From Clostridiaceae bacterium (GTDB lineage: Bacteria; Bacillota; Clostridia; Tissierellales; Sporanaerobacteraceae), in the NCBI GenBank assembly GCA_019391515.1, contig JAHXQP010000025.1, positions 124,001 to 188,000 of the forward strand: a DNA stretch of 64,000 nucleotides. The letters are read 5' to 3'. The translations under genes and the position numbers were made by a program. Positions 6,753-22,039 of this stretch are shown here, one piece after another. Positions within the stretch are counted from its first letter, which is position 1; the number at the start of each line of letters is the position of its first letter. The notes below the pieces were generated by a model. That model had not been told where the DNA came from. It ran no database searches and saw only the letters and a list, made by a program, of their open reading frames with translations.

Positions 6753-7665
6753 CTTTCATATATAAATCTAATAAGCCTGTGGATTTTGTAATAACATTTT
6801 CAATGTTAATATTTTTAATAGATAATCTCTTTATTACTTCAGATGTTACGTTTTTCTCCATTGTAATCAAAATTTCATTTTTACTAAGTTCATAATTGAT
6901 AATTGACTTAATACTTTTCATTGTCTGTTCTATTTCATTGCTTAGATTTTCTAAGTTTTGGGTTGACTGTATTATTATATTTAACTGGCTTTCCATTTCT
7001 AATTCCCGAATCGTTTTTGTAACAATATCTTTTCCGTGCTTTAAAATAGAAATTTTATCGCAGGTTCTAACTACCTCATCTAGATTATGAGTAGTAATAA
7101 TAAAGGTAGTTCCATGTTTTTCACACATATCTAAAATTGTTTCTCTTAATTTTTCTATACTTACAGGATCTAGTCCATTTGTAGGCTCATCCAATAATAC
7201 AATAGGGGGATTATGCAATATCGCACGAATTAAAGCAACTTTCTTTTTCATACCTGTTGAGAAACCTTTGATTGGTGAGTGTTTTTTGTGTGAAATCTCA
7301 AATAATTCTAAAAGCTCATCTATTCGTTTGTCATATTCATTTTTTGAAACTCCATATATTTCCGAATAGTATTTTAAATTTTCATAAACCGTTAATGGTT
7401 CATAAAGACCAACATGCTCTGATAATACTCCACATTTGGTCCTTATTTCCCTTCCTTTTTCAATTGGATTTAAACCGAAAACAGAGATTTCACCAGAAGT
7501 TGTTGCCATTAATCCAAGCATAAGTCTCAAAGCAGTTGTCTTTCCAGCCCCATTATGTCCTAATAATCCATATATCTCACCTGTATTAATAATAAGATTT
7601 AAGTCATTCAATGCTTTTGTTGTTTCGAAATGTTTACAAACATTTTTGAAAATAATTTTATTGAT
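6730..7665 (-). CDS. ABC transporter ATP-binding protein with a non-canonical start codon
   Basis: The protein has Walker A GHNGAGKTT, the Q-loop region, the signature GFSTGMKKKVALIRA, Walker B IVLLDEPTNGLD and the switch His in IITTHNLDE. It belongs to the CcmA/BcrA-type exporter ATPases, with an accessory C-terminal domain of about 85 residues. The first standard start in frame is TTG 7611, which would remove the conserved first strand. The frame continues upstream as NKIIFKNVCKHFETTKALNDL up to an ATC at 7665-7663, four bases after an excellent GAGGGGAG ribosome site. ATG probably mutated to ATC. Translation from ATC, or a weakened gene, are both possible. Confidence 0.85.
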   Translation of the reverse strand: MNKIIFKNVCKHFETTKALNDLNLIINTGEIYGLLGHNGAGKTTALRLMLGLMATTSGEISVFGLNPIEKGREIRTKCGVLSEHVGLYEPLTVYENLKYYSEIYGVSKNEYDKRIDELLELFEISHKKHSPIKGFSTGMKKKVALIRAILHNPPIVLLDEPTNGLDPVSIEKLRETILDMCEKHGTTFIITTHNLDEVVRTCDKISILKHGKDIVTKTIRELEMESQLNIIIQSTQNLENLSNEIEQTMKSIKSIINYELSKNEILITMEKNVTSEVIKRLSIKNINIENVITKSTGLLDLYMKVESDSHE

Positions 7666-7795
7666 TTTTCTCCCCTCACTTTCTAAATAAACAATATGTC
7701 AATAAAATAGTCGCATATAACCATTTTATTAACATAACGTCTGTTTTGATTATTAAAAGATAGAATTACTGAAATATACTTATTTCTATACTATA

Positions 7796-9607: not shown

Positions 9608-10861
9608 CACTCTAAATACTATATAATTTTCTTCATTCATCTTATCATTAAAAATTTCTATTTTACCATTGTATTTTTTTACAAGATCTTTAACATTATA
9701 GAGTCCATGACCTCTCCCACTATTTGACTTAATAGAGCTTCCTAATTTAAACATTTTATTTATATTTTTAATGTCTAAATATGGATGTTTATTTTTTAAC
9801 TCTATAACATCCATATCTTTCTCTTTTTTAAGTTTAAGTATAAGAACATTATCTGCTACTTTTGTTTCAAATCCATTATTTATTAGATTTCCTACAATCT
9901 CTATTAGCTCATAATCTTTCAATTTTGTTTTAAAGCCATAATCTTCTATTATTATATTAAAATTTATGCCCAACTTCCCTGCACTTTTTATTTTGCTATA
10001 TAAAAAACCAGCCAATACTTTATTATCAAGCTTAATTAAATCTATTAAGTTATTATCTATTTTCAGATCATCCATATAATTATTCATGGAATTAACAATA
10101 CTTTCATGATCCGTACTTGTAATTGTAAGCATCCTTAAAGCTTGAATATGGTTATCAAATTCATGTTGTTTTCTCCTTATTTCATCTATTAATTCATTAA
10201 TAATAGGGAAATAAGCTTCAAATATCTTTAATTGTTGTTCATCATGTTTGTTTTTCAATCCATCTTTTATAAAAACTAAATTAACATATATAATACCGGA
10301 AGAAAAAAACAACATAATAATTGTATCTTTTAAAAACCCACTAATATCCATATGCCAATATAATAATATAGTTGCTAACAATACTAATATATTTAATACT
10401 ATAGCCTTGAATATCTTATTATTTTCCATAACAAATTTAAACATTAAGTTTATTGGAATATATTTAACCACAAGAATAACCATAACTAATGATATACTCT
10501 CTGAAATCATCCCATAAACAAATTCATAATTTATATTTCCTAGGAAAACTTTTAACAAAACTATACTAAAAAGCTGTATAGATATGATTATAATTGTACT
10601 TACTATATATACATATATAGTTTCTATAATCTTCATATCATATAGTAGACAAATTATACAACAAATTAAAAATCCTCCAATTAAAAAATTGTAACGCATT
10701 GATATATATCTTCCACTTATTCCTGTAATTATTGATGCTCCTAAAATATAAATTGTAACTAAGAACTTATCTATTTTATTATGATTTACTAATTTACTTG
10801 ATATAATAACATACTCTACTATATCGAATATTGACATTAAAATTAATTCAATTAAATTCAT
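9590..10861 (-). CDS. agrC: AgrC-like sensor histidine kinase
   Basis: The 423-aa protein has about six N-terminal transmembrane helices (residues 1-200), a coiled linker, a dimerisation segment with the probable phospho-acceptor His233 (RRKQHEFDNHIQAL) and a C-terminal GHKL ATPase. The N-box region is IVGNLINNGFE and the G-box region is SGRGHGLYNVKDLVKKYNG. This is the AgrC (HPK10) architecture for sensing cyclic peptides. It follows agrA with a 14-base overlap and converges on agrD with an 18-base 3' overlap, so both transcripts are partly antisense at their ends. Confidence 0.92.
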   Translation of the reverse strand: MNLIELILMSIFDIVEYVIISSKLVNHNKIDKFLVTIYILGASIITGISGRYISMRYNFLIGGFLICCIICLLYDMKIIETIYVYIVSTIIIISIQLFSIVLLKVFLGNINYEFVYGMISESISLVMVILVVKYIPINLMFKFVMENNKIFKAIVLNILVLLATILLYWHMDISGFLKDTIIMLFFSSGIIYVNLVFIKDGLKNKHDEQQLKIFEAYFPIINELIDEIRRKQHEFDNHIQALRMLTITSTDHESIVNSMNNYMDDLKIDNNLIDLIKLDNKVLAGFLYSKIKSAGKLGINFNIIIEDYGFKTKLKDYELIEIVGNLINNGFETKVADNVLILKLKKEKDMDVIELKNKHPYLDIKNINKMFKLGSSIKSNSGRGHGLYNVKDLVKKYNGKIEIFNDKMNEENYIVFRVLFVRN

Positions 10862-11558
10862 AAATTTTACTCCCTATATAATCTCTATACTTTCTGCCAA
10901 CTGGAATAGGTAATTCAATTCCATGAAGATAAATATCATTGTTAGCCTTATCAATTTTTTTAATATAATTAAGGTTTATTATATATCCTTTGTGACAACG
11001 TATAAAATTAGTAGTTAGCTTGTCCAATAGTTGCTTTAATGTATAAGTAGATAGATCTATAGATTCATTTATCGTTATAATAAATACCTTTTTATTTTTA
11101 GCTTCAATATAAATTATTTCATCTTGTTTTACAAGATAAGAATAATCTTTTTGCTTTAATTTAAGATATACCTTTTCCTCTACTATTATTCCATGATTAA
11201 TTACTGTTCTTAAAGTATTCCTTACTTCTTCCTCTTTAAAAGGTTTTACTATATAGTCATAACAATGTATTTCTTTAAATGCCATCAATTCTCTTGTAGG
11301 TATTGCAGTTATAAATATAATAGGGGTTAATTTATAATTATCTATATTTCTTATTTCTTTAGCTAATTCAAATCCTGAATAATCTTTAAGTTGAATATCC
11401 AATAAAAACATATCATAATTAGCTTTTTTTATGTAGTTCAAAGCTTTTCCTGCATAGCCAGTTATATCTATTTCTATTTTACTATTTATAGAATTTATTA
11501 TGGCTTCCAAACCTTTTCCAGTTAACAAATCATCTTCTACTATTAACACCTTGGCCAT
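10848..11558 (-). CDS. agrA: AgrA-like response regulator (receiver + LytTR)
   Basis: The 236-aa protein has an N-terminal receiver domain: acidic pocket VEDD at residues 7-10, phospho-acceptor Asp54 in MFLLDIQLKD, Thr in FITAIP and Lys in YIVKPF. A LytTR DNA-binding domain follows from about residue 135, with FIRCHKGYIINLNYIKKI and PIPVGRKYRD as signatures. AgrC should phosphorylate it. Its target site is probably the direct repeat at 8798-8827. It is the first gene of the agrA-agrC pair and starts about 85 bases after the terminator of the glp genes. Confidence 0.93.
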   Translation of the reverse strand: MAKVLIVEDDLLTGKGLEAIINSINSKIEIDITGYAGKALNYIKKANYDMFLLDIQLKDYSGFELAKEIRNIDNYKLTPIIFITAIPTRELMAFKEIHCYDYIVKPFKEEEVRNTLRTVINHGIIVEEKVYLKLKQKDYSYLVKQDEIIYIEAKNKKVFIITINESIDLSTYTLKQLLDKLTTNFIRCHKGYIINLNYIKKIDKANNDIYLHGIELPIPVGRKYRDYIGSKIYEFN

Positions 11559-11644
11559 ATACTCACTCCTATATTAGTAATAAATACCTATATTGTTTAA
11601 TATTCTAGACATCTTCTCATTTTCCTTCTTTCGTATATTATAAG

Positions 11645-11685
11645 AAAAAGGAGTGATTTTCCCTAAGGGAAAATCACTCCTTTTT
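11645..11685. terminator. Strong bidirectional-looking terminator
   Basis: AAAAAGGAGTGATTTTCCCT (11645-11664) is followed directly by AAGGGAAAATCACTCCTTTTT (11665-11685), a near-perfect 20-bp stem with flanking A and T runs. It ends the glp operon on the minus strand and insulates agrA. Confidence 0.85.
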
Positions 11686-11700
11686 ATATACAATATTCTA

Positions 11701-12069
11701 TTATTGTTCTACAGTTCTAGAGGATATTAGGTCTACCCCTGTATCTAATAAGTTCTCGATTATTACTTCTCCTTCTTTTACTGGTGGTTTTACTTCTACA
11801 TTATTTATAACTTTCATTGATTCCATCATTTTAGCTTTAGGTATTCCACCTTTAGTTACCACTGGAAGTCTATTTAAATGGTCACTTTTTAGTTTAACTG
11901 TACTTGTTATAACCCTAGTTGGATTGGTTACTTCTTTTATTCCATATTCTGCTCCTCTTTTACAGGTATTACCTTCTACTGTATATCCTTTTAGACTAGT
12001 TTCATCCTTCTTTATAGTCAATCTACATCCTCTAGGGCATACTATACAAACTTTTTCATATACTTCCAT
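11701..12069 (-). CDS. DUF1667 iron-sulfur-like protein of the glp operon
   Basis: The 122-aa protein matches DUF1667 (PF07892). A Cys cluster C8-x2-C11-x3-C15 (VCIVCPRGC), plus Cys37 in GNTCKRG, suggests an iron-sulfur site. These proteins commonly follow the GlpA-like and flavoprotein genes of anaerobic glycerol-3-phosphate dehydrogenases and may act as a GlpC substitute in electron transfer. That role is inferred from context. The start lies two bases from the stop of the upstream flavoprotein gene, so the genes are tightly coupled. The operon's terminator is 16 bases beyond the stop. Confidence 0.88.
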   Translation of the reverse strand: MEVYEKVCIVCPRGCRLTIKKDETSLKGYTVEGNTCKRGAEYGIKEVTNPTRVITSTVKLKSDHLNRLPVVTKGGIPKAKMMESMKVINNVEVKPPVKEGEVIIENLLDTGVDLISSRTVEQ

Positions 12070-14818: not shown

Positions 14819-15385
14819 TTACATATACCAAACTTTTTCATTACTTGTTGATATGGCTACTGCTCCAGAATTTAAACTTCCTATTACATCTTCCTTATCC
14901 ATTATGAGTCCGCCTGTTATTATAGGTCTTCTAGTTTCTTGCACTAACCTTTTTACAACCTTAGGCATTATTCCTGGAAGTATTTCTACAGCATTAGGCT
15001 CAGTCTTTTTTATATTTCTTATACCTGTATCTAAAGATAGTGAATCTAGTACAAAAAGCCTTTGAATAGCAAAAATATCTAATTCTCTTGAATAATTAAT
15101 AAGACTACTTTTAGTAGTTATTATTCCATGAGGATTTATATTTTTTGCTACATATTCCAGCCCCCAGTTGTCTTTAGATATTCCATCTATTAAATCTAGA
15201 TGTATATATATTCCTTTATTTTTTCGTCTCACCTTATCTACTATTTCTTTTAAATTTACAATATTTCCCGTTAAAAGGAAAATGTTTTCACAAGGGGAAT
15301 TTATTGCATTTTCTAGTTTGTCTAGATCATTAACAGCTGCTATTATAGGGTTTATCTCCAATCTTTTAAAAAAATTAGTATCCAA
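14819..15385 (-). CDS. glpP: Glycerol-3-phosphate-responsive antiterminator GlpP
   Basis: The 188-aa protein matches the GlpP family (PF04309): GIITTKSSLINYS, QRLFVLDSLSLDTG, EILPGIMPKVV and ITGGLIMDKEDV. In Bacillus subtilis GlpP binds the glp leader RNA with G3P and prevents termination. A terminator hairpin lies 55 bases upstream of this gene and 25 bases after the predicted transcription start, so GlpP probably controls its own operon in the same way. ATG 15385 has a GAGGAGG ribosome site. It is the first gene of a four-gene unit with the G3P dehydrogenase components. Confidence 0.92.
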   Translation of the reverse strand: MDTNFFKRLEINPIIAAVNDLDKLENAINSPCENIFLLTGNIVNLKEIVDKVRRKNKGIYIHLDLIDGISKDNWGLEYVAKNINPHGIITTKSSLINYSRELDIFAIQRLFVLDSLSLDTGIRNIKKTEPNAVEILPGIMPKVVKRLVQETRRPIITGGLIMDKEDVIGSLNSGAVAISTSNEKVWYM

Positions 15386-15819: not shown

Positions 15820-15853
15820 AAAAAAAGCACCTACTATCACTCCCAGTAGGTGC
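15820..15853 (-). terminator. Terminator of the redox/membrane operon
   Basis: Minus strand GCACCTACT (15853-15845) pairs with AGTAGGTGC (15836-15828), followed by TTTTTTT. It lies about 65 bases past the last gene of the four-gene operon. Confidence 0.75.
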
Positions 15854-15916
15854 CCCTTTCTTGTATGACTAAGAAATACTATTTAAAATAATTTAAATCA
15901 TTCTAAATAGCAAAAA

Positions 15917-16834
15917 CTAATGATTTTCAGTTACAATTTCTTTATATTTTTCAGAGTTAATATATATCTCATCTTTTAAAGAATTAAGCTTATATTTCTT
16001 TTTACATTTAATCTTATAAATAAAAACTCCTATATTTGCCCCTAAAGATAATATACTCAGTAACAGTAATGCACTAGGATTATGAGAAGATTTTACTGCG
16101 AACCTAGATGATTCAGCAAATGTAGGTACTGTTAACGCAAACATTGCATACAATGCTAAACACTGGGCACGATGTTGCAACCAAGCACCTTTTTTAATAA
16201 AAAATGTAGAAATAGTACTAGATATAAGTAAAATTAATCCCGCGTAGAAAGAACGATCTGATATACAATTATATGTGTAGGAAAAGTTCCATATATTATA
16301 AGCCATAATCCAAAACCATAACTGATCAGGCCAAATCATATCTCTGCTTTTATCGTTTGAAATAAATATTCCACACCATCCTGAAATGGTAAGAATATTT
16401 AAAATACCAGCGATACCATTAATAATATTCCAAGGACCACCAATTATAAGTAGACCATTTTCAACTCCATGAATATTAAAACATTGAAAGTCCCGGTATA
16501 CTGCCTCTAAAATATTAATTGCTAGGATTAGTGGAGGAAACATTATCATAAATCTATTTTTATCTAAGTCTTCAATATATCTTAAAGCCATAAAACCTAT
16601 AACTCCTGCAAGGGCAGAATAAGTCTTAGTCCAAGCAAACCAATATCCAGATGGAGAATCTACACCTGCTGTTTTAGGCCATACAGCAATAGTCAATACA
16701 ATAGGCATAATAATATATACTGCAATAGAACAGTATTTGCTTCTTCTAGTTATTTCATTTACTAGAATCAATAAAGCTAATACCAAAAGCGCCATCAATC
16801 CAGTATACCATGGTATTTTCTCAAAGAAAAACAT
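15917..16834 (-). CDS. Polytopic membrane protein, paralogue of the preceding gene
   Basis: The 305-aa protein has about eight hydrophobic segments and a charged C-terminal tail (from about residue 275). It shares spaced motifs with the 263-aa protein encoded just upstream: AINILEAVYRDFQ against CINILEATLTDLK, and WFWIMAYNIWNFSYTYN against ILWIIAYTIWNWIFVTN. The two are therefore diverged paralogues and may form a heteromeric membrane complex. The family resembles DUF5692, a label I give with low certainty. No transporter or enzyme motif is evident. It is the last gene of the operon, 22 bases after its paralogue. The role could be substrate entry or export for the flavoenzymes, or electron input. 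Confidence 0.7.
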   Translation of the reverse strand: MFFFEKIPWYTGLMALLVLALLILVNEITRRSKYCSIAVYIIMPIVLTIAVWPKTAGVDSPSGYWFAWTKTYSALAGVIGFMALRYIEDLDKNRFMIMFPPLILAINILEAVYRDFQCFNIHGVENGLLIIGGPWNIINGIAGILNILTISGWCGIFISNDKSRDMIWPDQLWFWIMAYNIWNFSYTYNCISDRSFYAGLILLISSTISTFFIKKGAWLQHRAQCLALYAMFALTVPTFAESSRFAVKSSHNPSALLLLSILSLGANIGVFIYKIKCKKKYKLNSLKDEIYINSEKYKEIVTENH

Positions 16835-16856
16835 TTTTTCCCCTCCTTATGTTTAT

Positions 16857-17648
16857 CTAATATAATGAAATTATAACCATAGCTATTAACAACATAAGAT
16901 TAACCATCATTAAAACAACTTGGATGCTCTTCTTACTTGTCGCTTCAACAAAATTCGTAAAACTTCTACTTTCAAATTTTTCTTCTAGATATTGTTTATT
17001 GGCAATTTGGATAATACCTGCAACAGTCAATGAATTACCTCTAAAAATTAGCCAAAGAGCAGGATCTAATTTCAGTAGAATGCCTATTATAGGTGCAACT
17101 AAAACTCCTATATGATATAGGGCAATAGATGAGCTAAATTCATTAGTTACAAATATCCAATTCCATATGGTATATGCAATAATCCACAAAATCATACTAA
17201 TTGCCCCATCAGATGTTGCAATATAATAATAATCTAGCCAAGTACCTTCAATTAAAAATACTGTTCCTATAAGTGCTATACCAGTAATTACATTACAATA
17301 CTTTTTCTTTTTTAAATCCGTTAAAGTTGCTTCAAGAATATTGATACATAAAAATATTAATACTATTTTAACGTATAATTCCCCGGGTATAATATCAAAA
17401 ACTGCAAAAACTATTAATATACGCATTAATAAAAGTGTAGATAGTTTCAATTTTTCAAAGAATACAGTTTCTAGTCTTAATAGAACTATAATTGGTAGAA
17501 TAACATTAATTGGAATATTACACCATACAGGTTGATATGATGTTATCATTGACACAATTGTGATTAATAGAGTAAGCAAAATTAATAAACCAAGTGTACT
17601 AAGATTTTTAAACCAAGATTTATCATTTAGCTTTTCCATTTTTTCCAC
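16857..17648 (-). CDS. Polytopic membrane protein of the redox operon
   Basis: The 263-aa protein has seven or eight hydrophobic segments. The INILEA...DLK motif and the WIIAYTIWNWIFVTN motif match those of the downstream 305-aa protein, so the pair are paralogues. W, Y and N residues within the second motif could line a binding site. It follows the FAD/[2Fe-2S] reductase gene by 14 bases and has a GGAGGTGG ribosome site. No signal peptide or known catalytic motif is seen. Conservation of two such proteins beside two soluble redox enzymes implies that the pathway's substrate or product crosses, or sits in, the membrane. Confidence 0.7.
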   Translation of the reverse strand: MEKMEKLNDKSWFKNLSTLGLLILLTLLITIVSMITSYQPVWCNIPINVILPIIVLLRLETVFFEKLKLSTLLLMRILIVFAVFDIIPGELYVKIVLIFLCINILEATLTDLKKKKYCNVITGIALIGTVFLIEGTWLDYYYIATSDGAISMILWIIAYTIWNWIFVTNEFSSSIALYHIGVLVAPIIGILLKLDPALWLIFRGNSLTVAGIIQIANKQYLEEKFESRSFTNFVEATSKKSIQVVLMMVNLMLLIAMVIISLY

Positions 17649-17662
17649 CTCCTCTAATTTTT

Positions 17663-18829
17663 TTATATTCTTATTTCTAAATCAGATATAGGATAAGCTT
17701 TACAAGAGTGAATATAACCAAATTTTTCGTCAGCATGTCGTAATAAAACACCTCTAGGCATAAATACCTTTCCCGATATTAATTTAATACGACAAAAGCT
17801 ACATTCTCCACTACGACAACATACATTAATACGAATACCAGCTCTTTCTAAAGATGTTAGTATAGGTTCTCCTGACATAGCAGAAATTTTTTCATCATTA
17901 TTAATAATAATTGAAAATTCTTCTTTACCACTTAAATCTGAAGGCCAACCTGGTTCATTTTGAATATCTTGACGTGCTCCAAACATTTCTTTTCGTATCA
18001 TTCGAGGTTCTACATCAAGACTTAAAAGTGCTTCTTCAACAAAATCATTCATTATATGAGGACCACAAATGTAATAGGTATGGTCATGAATATTTTTTAC
18101 TAAAGATTTAATACAATTTGCATCAATAAATCCAGTAATCCCAGAATAGTCTTTAGGGGGTTCAGAAAGAACTATTGAGTAATCGAAATTTTTATGTTTA
18201 TTAGCCATATTTATTAATTCATCTTTAAAAAATATAATTTCCTCATTCCTACAACCATAAATTAAATAAATTTTTCTCTTCAACCCAGCTTCTAATACTT
18301 CTCTAATCATACTCATAAAAGGTGTAATACCACTTCCACCAGCTATAAATACTGAAGAATCTTTATGGAATACAGGATTGTAATGGAAATTACCACTAGG
18401 ACCATTTGCAGTAAATTCGTCACCAACTTTTGCCTGATCTAAAAAATAATCTGATACAAACCCAGAATTAATACGAGCAACTGTAATTTCATAATAAGCT
18501 CCTTGTTTACTGGAAGAAGAAATACTATATGGACGGCTAGTAAGAACACCATCGATTTCTATAAAGATATTTATATATTGGCCACTTTGAAATACAGGTA
18601 ATAAGCCTTTCTTAGGAACCAATCGAAAAGTTTTTGCATACTTATTAACTTCAATAATTTCAGATACAACTAATTGTAATTCTTTTGGATGAAGTCTATT
18701 AATTATACGTTCTTTACGTCCTTTTTCCAGACTATAATTTTTTCCATATTTTTTGCTAACTTCAATATCCTTTAATATTTCAGGCCCATTATCCATTTGT
18801 CTTATAATTAATTCTTTCATATCACTCAT
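17663..18829 (-). CDS. FAD/NAD(P)- and [2Fe-2S]-containing ferredoxin reductase-type protein
   Basis: The 388-aa protein has, in order, a 45-residue N-terminal extension, an FNR FAD domain with RPYSISSS (about residues 95-102), a pyridine-nucleotide domain with IAGGSGITPFMSMI and YICGPHIM, and a C-terminal plant-type [2Fe-2S] domain. The cluster cysteines are in CCRSGECSFC and HSCKAYP. This is the layout of Hcr and oxygenase reductases: NAD(P)H to FAD to [2Fe-2S]. The start overlaps the stop of the upstream flavoenzyme (ATGA), so the two are co-translated. It probably feeds electrons to that enzyme, since no oxygenase or Hcp is nearby. Confidence 0.88.
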   Translation of the reverse strand: MSDMKELIIRQMDNGPEILKDIEVSKKYGKNYSLEKGRKERIINRLHPKELQLVVSEIIEVNKYAKTFRLVPKKGLLPVFQSGQYINIFIEIDGVLTSRPYSISSSSKQGAYYEITVARINSGFVSDYFLDQAKVGDEFTANGPSGNFHYNPVFHKDSSVFIAGGSGITPFMSMIREVLEAGLKRKIYLIYGCRNEEIIFFKDELINMANKHKNFDYSIVLSEPPKDYSGITGFIDANCIKSLVKNIHDHTYYICGPHIMNDFVEEALLSLDVEPRMIRKEMFGARQDIQNEPGWPSDLSGKEEFSIIINNDEKISAMSGEPILTSLERAGIRINVCCRSGECSFCRIKLISGKVFMPRGVLLRHADEKFGYIHSCKAYPISDLEIRI

Positions 18830-20361
18830 TTTCTTCCCTCCTTGCTTAATAACTCATCTACAACAGAGCTAGCATACATATAATTAGGCCCAAATCCACA
18901 AATATTGACCCAGCCATTTGCAAAAGTTAAATTTTTAATTAAACTTTCCCTTGGGAAAAAATAAACAGAAGATTTTAAATCCTGTTCAAAACCATATATA
19001 GCCCCTTCAGGATGATTTAAATAGCGCATATGGGTTAAAGGAGTTGCAACTTCTATTTCTTCAATATGAGAACGAATGCCATGGAACTTTTCCTCTAATC
19101 GGTTAATAATAATATTAGCAGCCTTATACTTAGTTTCATAATATTCATCTATAGAAAGTTCCATCCAAGGCTTTCCATATTTTAATGAACCTGCTGTAAT
19201 TACACTTGTACCTGGTGGACTAACTGTTGGATCATCTATTGTATAACAGGTAGTAATTATTGGATCCTTATCTGGCATAAGATTATAAGAGTTTTGGAAT
19301 GCTTCATTACAATCCGTATCAGCATAAATTAAGTTAAAGGAGTCTGTAAAACCAATTTTTTCTGGAGGACAATCTAACCCTATAAAGCAAGTAAGAGCTG
19401 AAATTCCTACCTTATATCCACTTAGATATTCTTTTGCATTAATCATTGTATTTTCTTGTCTTATCAACTTAAAATAAGTATCAATAGGTGAGATCCCTGA
19501 AACAACTATGTCACAGGAATATTCATTTCCTTCTTCATCAACTACACCAACAACAGTACCATTTTCTACAATAATCTCTTCTGCGCCACAATTATACTTT
19601 ATTATTCCATTATTTTCGCTAATGACTTCAGCCAATGCTTGGGAAATTACTTGCGATCCTCCCTTTAAATAATATGGTTTGTCTGTCATATAAATAGCTG
19701 TACAACGAGCTAAAATAGAAAAAGGGAATCTTTCCGGTGGAACACCCATGAAGCACCAATACGCATTTAAGCATAGTTGTAATTCTTTACTTTGAAAAAA
19801 TTCATCTAATACTTCCTGTGTACTTCTTAGTCCATACTTTGCTAACACAGGGAACTTTCTTCTAAATAATGTCTTAGTAAGAGATTTCCTAATAGCTCCA
19901 GGTTCACCTGTAGAATCAGCTTGCATCTTTAGAAACCTCTCTGTCTCACAATCAAATCCAAAGACCGTTTCGAAATAGTTTAATATATTTTGCTTCTCTT
20001 CTGGAAATCGTTTGCATAAGACTTCTTCAGCTTCCTTTCTATCTGCAGGTAAAGATTGTTCAAAGCCATCTGGAAGATTGATTTTGAATAAAGATTTGAT
20101 CGGAACCCATTCAATTTTGTCTTCAATACCATATTGTCTAAAAAGTTCTCTTAATGGCCCAGGATTTTCTAGACTTCCCATTGAACTTAACTGATGTAAT
20201 GCCACCTCAAACTCAAAACGTCCACGCCTAAAGGTAGTTCCACATCCTCCTGGTATATTATGTTTTTCTAAAACAAGAACCTTTTTACCATTTAGTGCAA
20301 GCTTTGCAGCAGATGACAATCCACCATTACCTGCACCAATGACAATATAATCATAATGCAT
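18826..20361 (-). CDS. CrtI/retinol-saturase-like FAD-dependent oxidoreductase
   Basis: The 511-aa protein has a classic FAD motif near its start (IVIGAGNGGLSSAAKLALNGKKV then EKHNIPGG), RGRFEFEVALHQL, and a C-terminal block (GWVNICGFGPNYMYASSVVDE). It falls in the phytoene desaturase/all-trans-retinol 13,14-reductase superfamily, whose members reduce or oxidise C=C bonds of large hydrophobic compounds. The frame opens at 20382, but ATG 20361 has the GGGAGG ribosome site at proper spacing. Genes for carotenoid synthesis are absent, so a carotenoid role is unlikely. With the coupled reductase downstream, reduction of an exogenous isoprenoid- or sterol-like substrate is plausible. This is inference. 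Confidence 0.85.
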   Translation of the reverse strand: MHYDYIVIGAGNGGLSSAAKLALNGKKVLVLEKHNIPGGCGTTFRRGRFEFEVALHQLSSMGSLENPGPLRELFRQYGIEDKIEWVPIKSLFKINLPDGFEQSLPADRKEAEEVLCKRFPEEKQNILNYFETVFGFDCETERFLKMQADSTGEPGAIRKSLTKTLFRRKFPVLAKYGLRSTQEVLDEFFQSKELQLCLNAYWCFMGVPPERFPFSILARCTAIYMTDKPYYLKGGSQVISQALAEVISENNGIIKYNCGAEEIIVENGTVVGVVDEEGNEYSCDIVVSGISPIDTYFKLIRQENTMINAKEYLSGYKVGISALTCFIGLDCPPEKIGFTDSFNLIYADTDCNEAFQNSYNLMPDKDPIITTCYTIDDPTVSPPGTSVITAGSLKYGKPWMELSIDEYYETKYKAANIIINRLEEKFHGIRSHIEEIEVATPLTHMRYLNHPEGAIYGFEQDLKSSVYFFPRESLIKNLTFANGWVNICGFGPNYMYASSVVDELLSKEGRK

Positions 20362-20428
20362 TTTTATACCTCCCTTTTTCATAGTTTATATAAATTTAAT
20401 ATTTAACAAAATATGATTCACCGAATAC

Positions 20429-20446
20429 CATTCTATACATAGTATG
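20429..20446. promoter_or_regulatory. Candidate TetR operator over the -10 of the redox operon
   Basis: CATTCTATACATAGTATG is an imperfect 18-bp palindrome (14 of 18 positions symmetric). Its right end is the proposed -10 (CATACT on the minus strand) of the redox operon. The divergent TetR gene starts 118 bases away. Binding is inferred. Confidence 0.5.
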
Positions 20447-20469
20447 CTATATGTTTTAATTAATGTCAA
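20441..20469 (-). promoter_or_regulatory. Predicted promoter of the redox operon
   Basis: Minus strand: perfect TTGACA (20469-20464), 17-bp spacer, CATACT (20446-20441). Strong -35 and weak -10 with an overlapping palindrome fit a repressible promoter. Confidence 0.6.
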
Positions 20470-20563
20470 TATTTTCACAAAATAAATATTAACTTGTTTT
20501 GATACTATTTTAAAAAATATGGTACTATATAATATAAAGAAATTATAAAGGAGAAAATATTAA

Positions 20564-21157
20564 ATGAAACAATTAAATAAAAGACAAAGACAAGCCCTAG
20601 CCACAAAATTAAAAATCACTGAAAAAGCCATGGAATTAATTAAAACTTATGGCTTAGATTCTATTAAAGTTACAGATATTTGTGAAAGCGCTAATATTTC
20701 TGTTGGAGCATTTTATCATTATTTTAATTCAAAGCAAGATTTAATTGAAAATGCCTATATGAAAATAGACCTATTAGTGGAAAAAAATGTGGAAGGTTTA
20801 CAATATGATAGTAGCTACGATAAGGTTATTGAAATATTCCGACAAGCCATGAATAATATAGAAGAACTTGGATATAAATTTATGTCTGATATATTCAAGC
20901 ATATAGTTATCCACCCTCCAAAATATTCAATACTGGGAACCCGTTATCCTTATAATGCAATTAGAAAATCCATTGAAGAAGGTATAAAATCTGGTGAGTT
21001 TATACCTTCAACAAATGCTGCTGAATTGTCCCACGATTGTATGCGTATTGGACGTGGACTAATTTTTGACTGGTGCTTATATGAAGGAAGTTATTCTCTA
21101 TCTCAAGAAACAGAAAGACTAGTAAGGATACTACTTAATGATTTTGTAAATAAATAG
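20564..21157 (+). CDS. TetR/AcrR-family transcriptional regulator
   Basis: The 197-aa protein has a TetR helix-turn-helix at residues about 12-58 (KITEKAMELIKTYGLDSIKVTDICESANISVGAFYHYFNSKQDLI) and a helical ligand-binding region behind it. An AAAGGAG site precedes ATG 20564. It is divergent from the four-gene redox operon, and a palindrome over that operon's -10 is a likely target. It therefore probably represses the operon until a hydrophobic inducer, perhaps the substrate itself, binds. A TTGATA-18-TACTAT promoter (20499-20528) could drive it. Confidence 0.9.
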   Translation: MKQLNKRQRQALATKLKITEKAMELIKTYGLDSIKVTDICESANISVGAFYHYFNSKQDLIENAYMKIDLLVEKNVEGLQYDSSYDKVIEIFRQAMNNIEELGYKFMSDIFKHIVIHPPKYSILGTRYPYNAIRKSIEEGIKSGEFIPSTNAAELSHDCMRIGRGLIFDWCLYEGSYSLSQETERLVRILLNDFVNK

Positions 21158-21724: not shown

Positions 21725-22039
21725 TTATTCATCTTTATCTAATTTAGGATATCCTAATCTATCTAGTACCATATTATAACCATCTGCTCCGTAGTTCAAT
21801 GCTCTACTTATCCTACTGATGGTAGCTGTACTAGCCCCTGTTTTCTCTTCAATTTCATTATAAGTTCTATTCATTCTAAGTAATTTTGCTACTTCAAGTC
21901 TTTGGCTAATAGCTTGTATTTCTTTTACAGTGCATATATCTTCAAAAAAACGATAACATTCTTCCATATTTTCAAGTTTAAGTATTGCTTCAAATAATGA
22001 ATCTACCTGATCACTCTTTATTCTAGAATTATAATCCAT
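21725..22039 (-). CDS. YerC/YecD-type TrpR-like repressor
   Basis: The 104-aa protein matches the TrpR superfamily subgroup YerC/YecD (TIGR02531): FFEDICTVKEIQAISQRLEVAKLL, then a helix-turn-helix RTYNEIEEKTGASTATISRISRALNYG. Family members are small dimeric DNA-binding proteins whose effector is mostly unknown. A GGGGGTG ribosome site precedes ATG 22039. It stands alone between a transposase remnant and formate-THF ligase. In several Firmicutes it is found close to purine or folate genes, which fits here but does not prove regulation. Confidence 0.88.
   Translation of the reverse strand: MDYNSRIKSDQVDSLFEAILKLENMEECYRFFEDICTVKEIQAISQRLEVAKLLRMNRTYNEIEEKTGASTATISRISRALNYGADGYNMVLDRLGYPKLDKDE

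Follow-up and report, generated by a model that had tools for sequence, protein, structure and literature searches.

A TetR-flanked operon of a CrtI-like flavoenzyme, an FNR-type reductase and two DUF5692-group membrane proteins, possibly for the reduction of unsaturated fatty acids

The 64,000-nucleotide stretch of Clostridiaceae DNA analysed here (positions 124,001 to 188,000 of contig JAHXQP010000025.1, assembly GCA_019391515.1; hereafter the window) contains an operon which may encode a reductase of carbon-carbon double bonds. The open reading frames (ORFs) listed for the window include four tightly packed genes on the minus strand and, divergent from them on the plus strand, a gene for a TetR-family regulator (20564..21157; PF00440, TetR_N, E 1.7e-12 in Pfam). 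The first of the four encodes a CrtI-like flavin adenine dinucleotide (FAD) oxidoreductase (18826..20382, 518 amino acids (aa) as listed, with the Pfam domains NAD_binding_8 and Amino_oxidase). It is followed by genes for an FNR-type reductase (17663..18829, 388 aa, with FAD-binding, NAD-binding and plant-type [2Fe-2S] domains), for a short DUF5692-like membrane protein called hereafter DUFs (16857..17648, 263 aa), and for a long DUF5692 membrane protein, DUFL (15917..16834, 305 aa). The FNR ORF overlaps that of the flavoenzyme by 4 bp, and the next two gaps are 14 bp (FNR to DUFs) and 22 bp (DUFs to DUFL). ORFs and Pfam domains thus bear out the arrangement of four tightly packed genes and a divergent TetR gene that an earlier note on this DNA had described. 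The flavoenzyme probably starts at 20361 (511 aa) rather than at 20382, because its homologues begin at a position that aligns with residue 8 of the ORF as listed, or with a neighbouring residue (the L028 protein was trimmed by hand to match that residue) and because a Shine-Dalgarno-like sequence, AAGGGAGG, lies just upstream of 20361.

Regulatory signals were inspected at both ends of the operon. A sigma-70-like promoter, TTGACA-17-CATACT, was found by pattern scan at 20469..20441 on the minus strand. The match is weak on its own, because 52 promoter-like matches were found in the scanned region versus 49.9 expected; its TTGACA is kept in three of four aligned loci (the window and the related loci L019, L020 and L028). 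The earlier note had also placed a palindrome over the -10, without giving its position. A short palindrome, CATAGTATG, is indeed there; it is absent from three relatives that share the divergent arrangement, and was rejected as an operator since it is not conserved. A scan for longer palindromes in the intergenic stretch of the window found none. The probable TetR operator is a conserved block, AGAATnnnATTCGGTGAA, at 20434..20417 on the minus strand, just downstream of the -10. It is present in all four loci of the alignment, occurs with up to two mismatches at one place in the whole window (0.27 expected), and holds an inverted repeat, ATTC-GGT-GAAT, at the start site in every one of the four. 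Homologous divergent TetR genes were found in L019, L020 (where a contig end cuts the gene), L021 and L028. The block is compatible with regulation of the operon by the divergent TetR, as had been proposed. At the other end, a hairpin with a U run (15860..15820, minus strand, -22 kcal/mol, z -5.28) confirms the single intrinsic terminator; it is absent from the pattern-scan list, and the shuffle test, in which none of 200 shuffles was as good, supports it as real.

One condition that the earlier note had set as refuting its proposal, that the four genes do not stay together in other genomes, did not hold. A flavoenzyme scan of named genomes gave 12 loci (54-79% identity) in Clostridia, Spirochaetes and one deltaproteobacterial metagenome-assembled genome (MAG). 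An FNR gene lies directly behind the flavoenzyme gene in all 12 (in L027 it is cut by the contig end), a short DUF5692-like gene is found in ten, and nine keep all four genes (in L020 the contig stops within the last of them). Among the others, L023 has no gene for DUFL, the DUF5692 gene of L026 is divergent, and the contig of L027 ends inside the FNR gene. Two gene orders were observed, flavoenzyme-FNR-DUFs-DUFL in the window, L019, L020 and L028, and DUFs-flavoenzyme-FNR-DUFL in L021, L022, L024, L025, L029 and L030. Close to the window's genome such genes are scarce. In a search of 99 further genomes drawn from its genus, family and order, no full-length flavoenzyme match exceeded 34% identity (short FAD-motif stretches score higher), and only two of 299 genomes of the phylum, the window's own included, passed a flavoenzyme profile at E 1e-60. 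Because close orthologues are rare near the window's genome while the cassette is found in distant anaerobes, it appears to have spread horizontally. No clear step in GC content, as a mark of recent transfer, was seen.

The most constant part of the cassette is the pair of flavoenzyme and FNR genes. The FNR protein matches PF00970 (FAD_binding_6), PF00175 (NAD_binding_1) and PF00111 (Fer2), all over cut-off, and its nearest NCBIfam family, PaaE, under cut-off. Its cysteines C338-x4-C343-x2-C346-x29-C376 are invariant in 11 of 11 aligned sequences, and some 45 residues ahead of the FAD domain, conserved in part, may serve in docking. From the genus, family and order scan 19 further loci were kept, weaker matches being left out. 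An FNR gene stands directly behind the CrtI-like gene in the complete loci L046-L049 (30-36% identity), L059 consists of a CrtI fragment and an FNR gene, L050 is cut by a contig end, and 13 more distant CrtI-like loci have no FNR gene in a flank of up to 1.5 kb. Further pairs were found at L106 (a second copy in genome G301) and L089/L091 (G207). In a midpoint-rooted tree of 32 CrtI-like proteins, from which L050 and L059 were left out as incomplete, a branch with support 100/100 parted 19 FNR-paired proteins from 13 others, some of them on long branches; none of these 13 had an FNR gene in the fetched flank. Since the FNR-paired proteins form one clade, the two gene products most likely make up one enzyme, in which electrons would pass from NAD(P)H to the FNR-[2Fe-2S] protein and on to the FAD of the CrtI-like protein. 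The single clade further suggests an old two-component unit, to which the DUF5692 pair would have been added in the window's subfamily. The domains thus support the proposal, made earlier, of a reductive electron chain able to serve a flavoenzyme acting on C=C bonds.

The flavoenzyme matches PF13450 (E 1.8e-12). Its best NCBIfam family is carotenoid isomerase (TIGR02730), at 162.2 bits versus a cut-off of 586.9, and it scores 125.4 bits versus 238.1 against the CrtI phytoene desaturase (TIGR02734). The closest folds to its structural model (mean pLDDT 77.3, falling below 50 at residues 46-63 and 458-478) are 4rep (E 1.3e-25, TM 0.71) and 4dgk (E 5.7e-20), and the model places it in the CrtI-like fold at the superfamily level. 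Of the known enzymes nearest to it, CrtI phytoene desaturase, carotenoid isomerase (CRTISO) and retinol saturase, it shares the fold and the N-terminal FAD region with CrtI. It differs from CrtI and CRTISO by these low scores, by its FNR partner and by the lack of a carotenoid pathway. The observation that no carotenoid genes lie nearby held, and could be widened: phytoene synthase (PF00494) had no match in the whole genome, other terpene genes not having been searched, whereas the same search gave matches in seven of 14 known control genomes. Carotenoid biosynthesis was rejected on these grounds and because the family cut-offs are not reached.

The two membrane proteins are paralogues, as the earlier note had read them, and both belong to the DUF5692 group. 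The long one scores 427.6 bits against PF18948, whose gathering score is 27; the short one misses it with 23.6 bits, and its relation was confirmed by aligning it to the DUF5692 alignment (hhalign probability 97.5%, E 7.7e-12). The model of DUFL is mostly helical and confident (pLDDT 89.8, pTM 0.88). Foldseek gave no match at E <= 0.001 in the PDB (best E 0.17), and comparison with 7TM proteins gave VIA-align Z values of at most 6.5, within chance level for helical bundles. Invariant polar residues in the DUF5692 alignment include N26, E27, R30, K70, E110, D165, D170 and R222, which are compatible with a transporter or an enzyme as well. The alignment of the long protein has no invariant histidine, which disfavours heme-type electron transport by it; that of the short protein has one, H179. 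Uptake or presentation of a lipid by the pair is a guess. The ambiguity of these residues is also one ground for a reading in which the operon acts oxidatively or in lipid remodelling, as a desaturase would, or reduces a lipid or quinone made by the cell, with DUF5692 as lipid transporter. The CrtI family consists largely of desaturases (4rep, 4dgk), which agrees with such a role. The patchy distribution, with no full-length match above 34% in the 99 related genomes, speaks against a core lipid pathway, and FNR-[2Fe-2S] chains normally carry electrons to a partner; we hold this reading very improbable.

More was learned from the places where DUF5692 genes occur. They were detected in 11 of the 299 phylum genomes (G219 by a short match only) and in none of 14 control genomes. 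The sample contained 17 DUF5692 places, of which two were the window's own, and the other 15 were fetched. Nine of the 15 have an IsrA-like gene within 6.5 kb, and eight a homologue of PAI, the linoleate isomerase of P. acnes; counted by genome, each neighbour is near DUF5692 in six of 11. Over the phylum sample, IsrA-like genes occur in eight genomes, seven of them also with DUF5692 (hypergeometric p 6.6e-11, or 1.6e-9 without the window's own genome), and PAI-like genes in seven, all with DUF5692 (p 8.4e-12, or 2.3e-10; G136 counted as PAI-positive by the distant type only). These p values overstate the association, because the genomes are related; by family, DUF5692 is found in five of six IsrA families and five of five PAI families. 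Full-length IsrA-like genes are also present in eight of 12 searched genomes that bear the cassette. Without G000 this becomes seven of 11, versus seven of 298 in the phylum sample (p 2e-8), for a set that omits the genome of L019 and differs in make-up from the sample, some hosts belonging to other phyla.

The IsrA-like neighbours, judged by their domains (PF14691, PF07992, Fer4), size of about 900 aa and HypA/HypB neighbours alone, belong to the IsrA family. In the 907-aa protein of L023, PF14691 spans 373-451, PF07992 467-763 and Fer4 306-328, with a weak second site near 846. According to PMC10134865, the isoprene reductase IsrA has 901 aa and the same domains, and forms with HypA and HypB the isr operon of Acetobacterium wieringae, for which anaerobic C=C reduction was proposed; 988 IsrA homologues had a co-occurrence of 0.4 with DUF5692 and 0.21 with TetR. 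The second group of neighbours are flavoproteins that match 2b9w over nearly their full length and are by this match homologues of PAI. The protein of L032 does so with E 2e-68 (next match 8e-8) and that of L026 with E 2.8e-31. A more distant type, seen in three of the eight (L036, L037, L039), is 25-29% identical to the L032 protein; for L036, 2b9w was the sole match (E 1.4e-19). The entry 2b9w, named 'putative aminooxidase' in its file, is presumably the polyunsaturated fatty acid (PUFA) isomerase of P. acnes of Liavonchanka 2006. The P. acnes isomerase converts linoleic acid to t10,c12-conjugated linoleic acid (CLA), as stated in PMC2885616. Beside the PAI-like gene stands an intact gene of helix-turn-helix (HTH) or transposase-like type, about 330-375 aa, in all eight PAI-bearing DUF5692 places. 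It was found in L032 (6479-7516) and L036-L042, and also in L026 (5333-6400) and L075 (9995-11041), with a remnant in L103; it is perhaps a domesticated transposase acting as a regulator.

In a few loci these neighbours meet the cassette directly. L023 holds in one run TetR, DUFs, the flavoenzyme, FNR, an IsrA-like gene and HypA. L026 has the order HTH, PAI-like, flavoenzyme, FNR, a 372-aa protein and DUF5692; the gene of the 372-aa protein (10768-11886) has no Pfam match. In L103, from the window's own genus, an HTH remnant, a broken PAI-like gene, the flavoenzyme, FNR and a PAI-like fragment were found, the broken pieces (7118-7741 and 10887-11690) flanking the CrtI-FNR pair. A second place in the genome of L030 (L100) reads HypB-IsrA-HypA-DUF5692. 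The regulator tally across loci covered GntR only. A GntR regulator with GntR and FCD domains adjoins the cassette of L022, and related ones adjoin the divergent CrtI-FNR pairs L102 and L104 and the IsrA operons L092, L094, L096 and L100. The L022 protein is 31-44% identical to those of the four IsrA operons, the L104 protein 30-38% identical to these and to that of L022, and the L102 protein 36% identical to that of L104. A ligand for these regulators was sought in the family matches of the L022 protein (NanR, FadR, LldR, PdhR and others in NCBIfam); these name none, because all are far under cut-off.

The window's genome contains the other parts at separate places. At L075 (contig C4) lie an HTH gene, a PAI-like gene (E 1e-63 to 2b9w), genes of ABC-type appearance, HypB, an IsrA-like gene (63% identical to that of L023) and HypA, and a second IsrA-HypA pair was found at L090. 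By eye, the region 4784-8331 of L075, between the PAI-like gene and HypB, holds the ABC-transporter-looking genes and a small protein with an HGHECPG motif, and a small membrane-like protein follows HypA. The ABC-like and small-protein genes could serve metal uptake for IsrA. An in-frame TGA (selenocysteine) considered in the second IsrA-like gene (G000:C3) was dismissed: the TGA falls outside the uninterrupted 890-aa frame, because the match extends beyond the start of that frame. The genes flanking the operon in the window, a glycerol-3-phosphate responsive antiterminator (14819-15385, minus strand) and a YerC/TrpR-like regulator (21725-22039, minus strand), are ordinary.

These data led us to replace the isoprenoid or sterol substrate guessed in the earlier note, since the links to PAI and IsrA favour unsaturated fatty acids or conjugated dienes; of the first interpretation, the gene set, electron chain, regulator and membrane pair stood; the substrate was changed, and the palindrome is not the conserved element. 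We read the operon as a TetR-controlled, NAD(P)H-dependent reductase of C=C bonds in unsaturated fatty acids or in chains much like them, a reading to which we give about an even chance. Together with a membrane partner it would carry out biohydrogenation in anaerobes, which would serve to dispose of electrons and/or to detoxify. The fatty-acid substrate is deduced from genome context. CLA, like isoprene, is a conjugated diene. In a rival reading the target would be isoprenoid-type dienes or polyenes (carotenoids, retinoids, terpenes) rather than fatty acids. Enzymes of the CrtI type are made to handle chains of that sort, the nearest NCBIfam models (carotenoid isomerase and CrtI) and folds (4rep, 4dgk) lie there, and IsrA, a putative isoprene reductase, was higher in A. 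wieringae with isoprene (PMC10134865). Against this, the flavoenzyme scores far under the CrtI and carotenoid isomerase cut-offs, the genome has no phytoene synthase (with the limit on other terpene genes given above), and the neighbourhoods bring a homologue of a fatty-acid isomerase. Such a target seems to us unlikely.

The same neighbours bear on a second question, whether the reaction is a net reduction. The CrtI-like protein might be an isomerase, cis-trans or positional, working with reduced FAD that the FNR protein keeps reduced, and no net hydrogenation would then occur. Carotenoid isomerase is its best family match, and the PAI homologues belong to a family of flavin isomerases not known to perform a net redox reaction. 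A dedicated NAD(P)H reductase that is always adjacent would, however, exceed the need of a catalytic flavin, and L023 places the cassette with the reductase-like IsrA. We consider an isomerase quite unlikely.

Several observations weigh against the reductase of fatty-acid double bonds that we favour. The CrtI family also includes desaturases and isomerases. Neither IsrA nor PAI is found at five of the 15 DUF5692 places (L031, L033, L034, L043, L045), nor anywhere in the DUF5692-bearing genomes G164, G219 and G239, and two genomes of one genus, G056 and G095, supply five of the nine IsrA places and four of the eight PAI places. Four of the 12 cassette genomes, MAGs of completeness not given, are without a full-length IsrA-like gene, and PAI-like genes occur in only two of the 12. 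Since both are missing from part of these genomes, the cassette needs neither. Over 19 CrtI-FNR loci (the window, L019-L030, L091, L102-L106, some with short flanks), PAI adjoins the pair in two and IsrA in one. Within the window's genome, the IsrA- and PAI-like genes have no DUF5692 gene beside them. The third DUF5692 gene of this genome (L031 9338-10450, contig C28) stands alone near an amidase gene, without redox partner. As G167 has IsrA and G207 a CrtI-FNR pair without DUF5692, neither enzyme strictly requires this protein. The weakest step is the role of DUF5692 as a partner for lipids, with a confident model that has no convincing relative and polar residues that are ambiguous. Some of the co-occurrence may come from the anaerobic way of life that these organisms have in common.

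If the reductase of fatty-acid chains is correct, the operon might work as follows. An unsaturated lipid would cause TetR to leave the presumed operator, a conserved block that lies over the start site. The DUF5692 pair in the membrane, for which association is what was observed, would deliver or hold the lipid, or dock the enzyme. In the FNR protein, NAD(P)H would reduce the FAD, and the [2Fe-2S] domain would hand electrons on to the FAD of the CrtI-like protein, a path suggested by the domains, the 4-bp gene overlap and the constant pairing. The flavoenzyme would then reduce a C=C bond, which may belong to a conjugated system. IsrA, HypA and HypB with the PAI-like isomerase would offer a second way of achieving this, through iron-sulfur (perhaps nickel) chemistry, with DUF5692 in common. 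PAI would make a conjugated diene, to be reduced by IsrA or by the CrtI-FNR enzyme. More generally, though we would sooner doubt this than assert it, anaerobes may have at least two unrelated kits, CrtI-FNR and IsrA-HypAB, that hydrogenate unfunctionalised, possibly conjugated fatty-acid C=C bonds, with DUF5692 as the common lipid-presenting partner, some genomes adding a diene-making isomerase of PAI type. In that case genes could be assigned to reductive steps of biohydrogenation in gut, rumen and digester.

In open-licence papers no description of the CrtI-FNR-DUF5692 set was found, so that the earlier claim of an undescribed system holds for this composition; DUF5692 itself is in print (PMC10134865). 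Among the closest known systems is the isr operon; in L023 an IsrA-like gene and HypA stand directly behind a cassette of the window's type. The window operon differs in having neither IsrA nor Hyp genes, and reduction there would fall to a CrtI-like flavoenzyme that an FNR-[2Fe-2S] protein supplies with electrons. Like the flavoenzyme, PAI binds FAD and belongs to the broader group of amine-oxidase/CrtI folds, and its homologues adjoin CrtI-FNR (L026, L103) and DUF5692, but it is a separate protein outside the window operon. To our knowledge PAI needs no FNR partner. The CLA reductase of Butyrivibrio fibrisolvens, reportedly the subject of Fukuda 2007 and Hughes 1982, is similar in the proposed reaction type alone, the reduction of conjugated linoleic acid; if that enzyme (Fukuda 2007) belonged to the CrtI-like family, the novelty would fall. 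The main text of PMC10134865 has neither 'linoleic' nor 'phytoene'. Rumen biohydrogenation by bacteria lets only a small part of dietary PUFA into meat and milk (PMC2836310). If our reading is true, it would provide testable reductase genes, give a role to DUF5692, a family so far functionless, and tie the isoprene reductase family to the fatty-acid isomerase family via common gene neighbourhoods.

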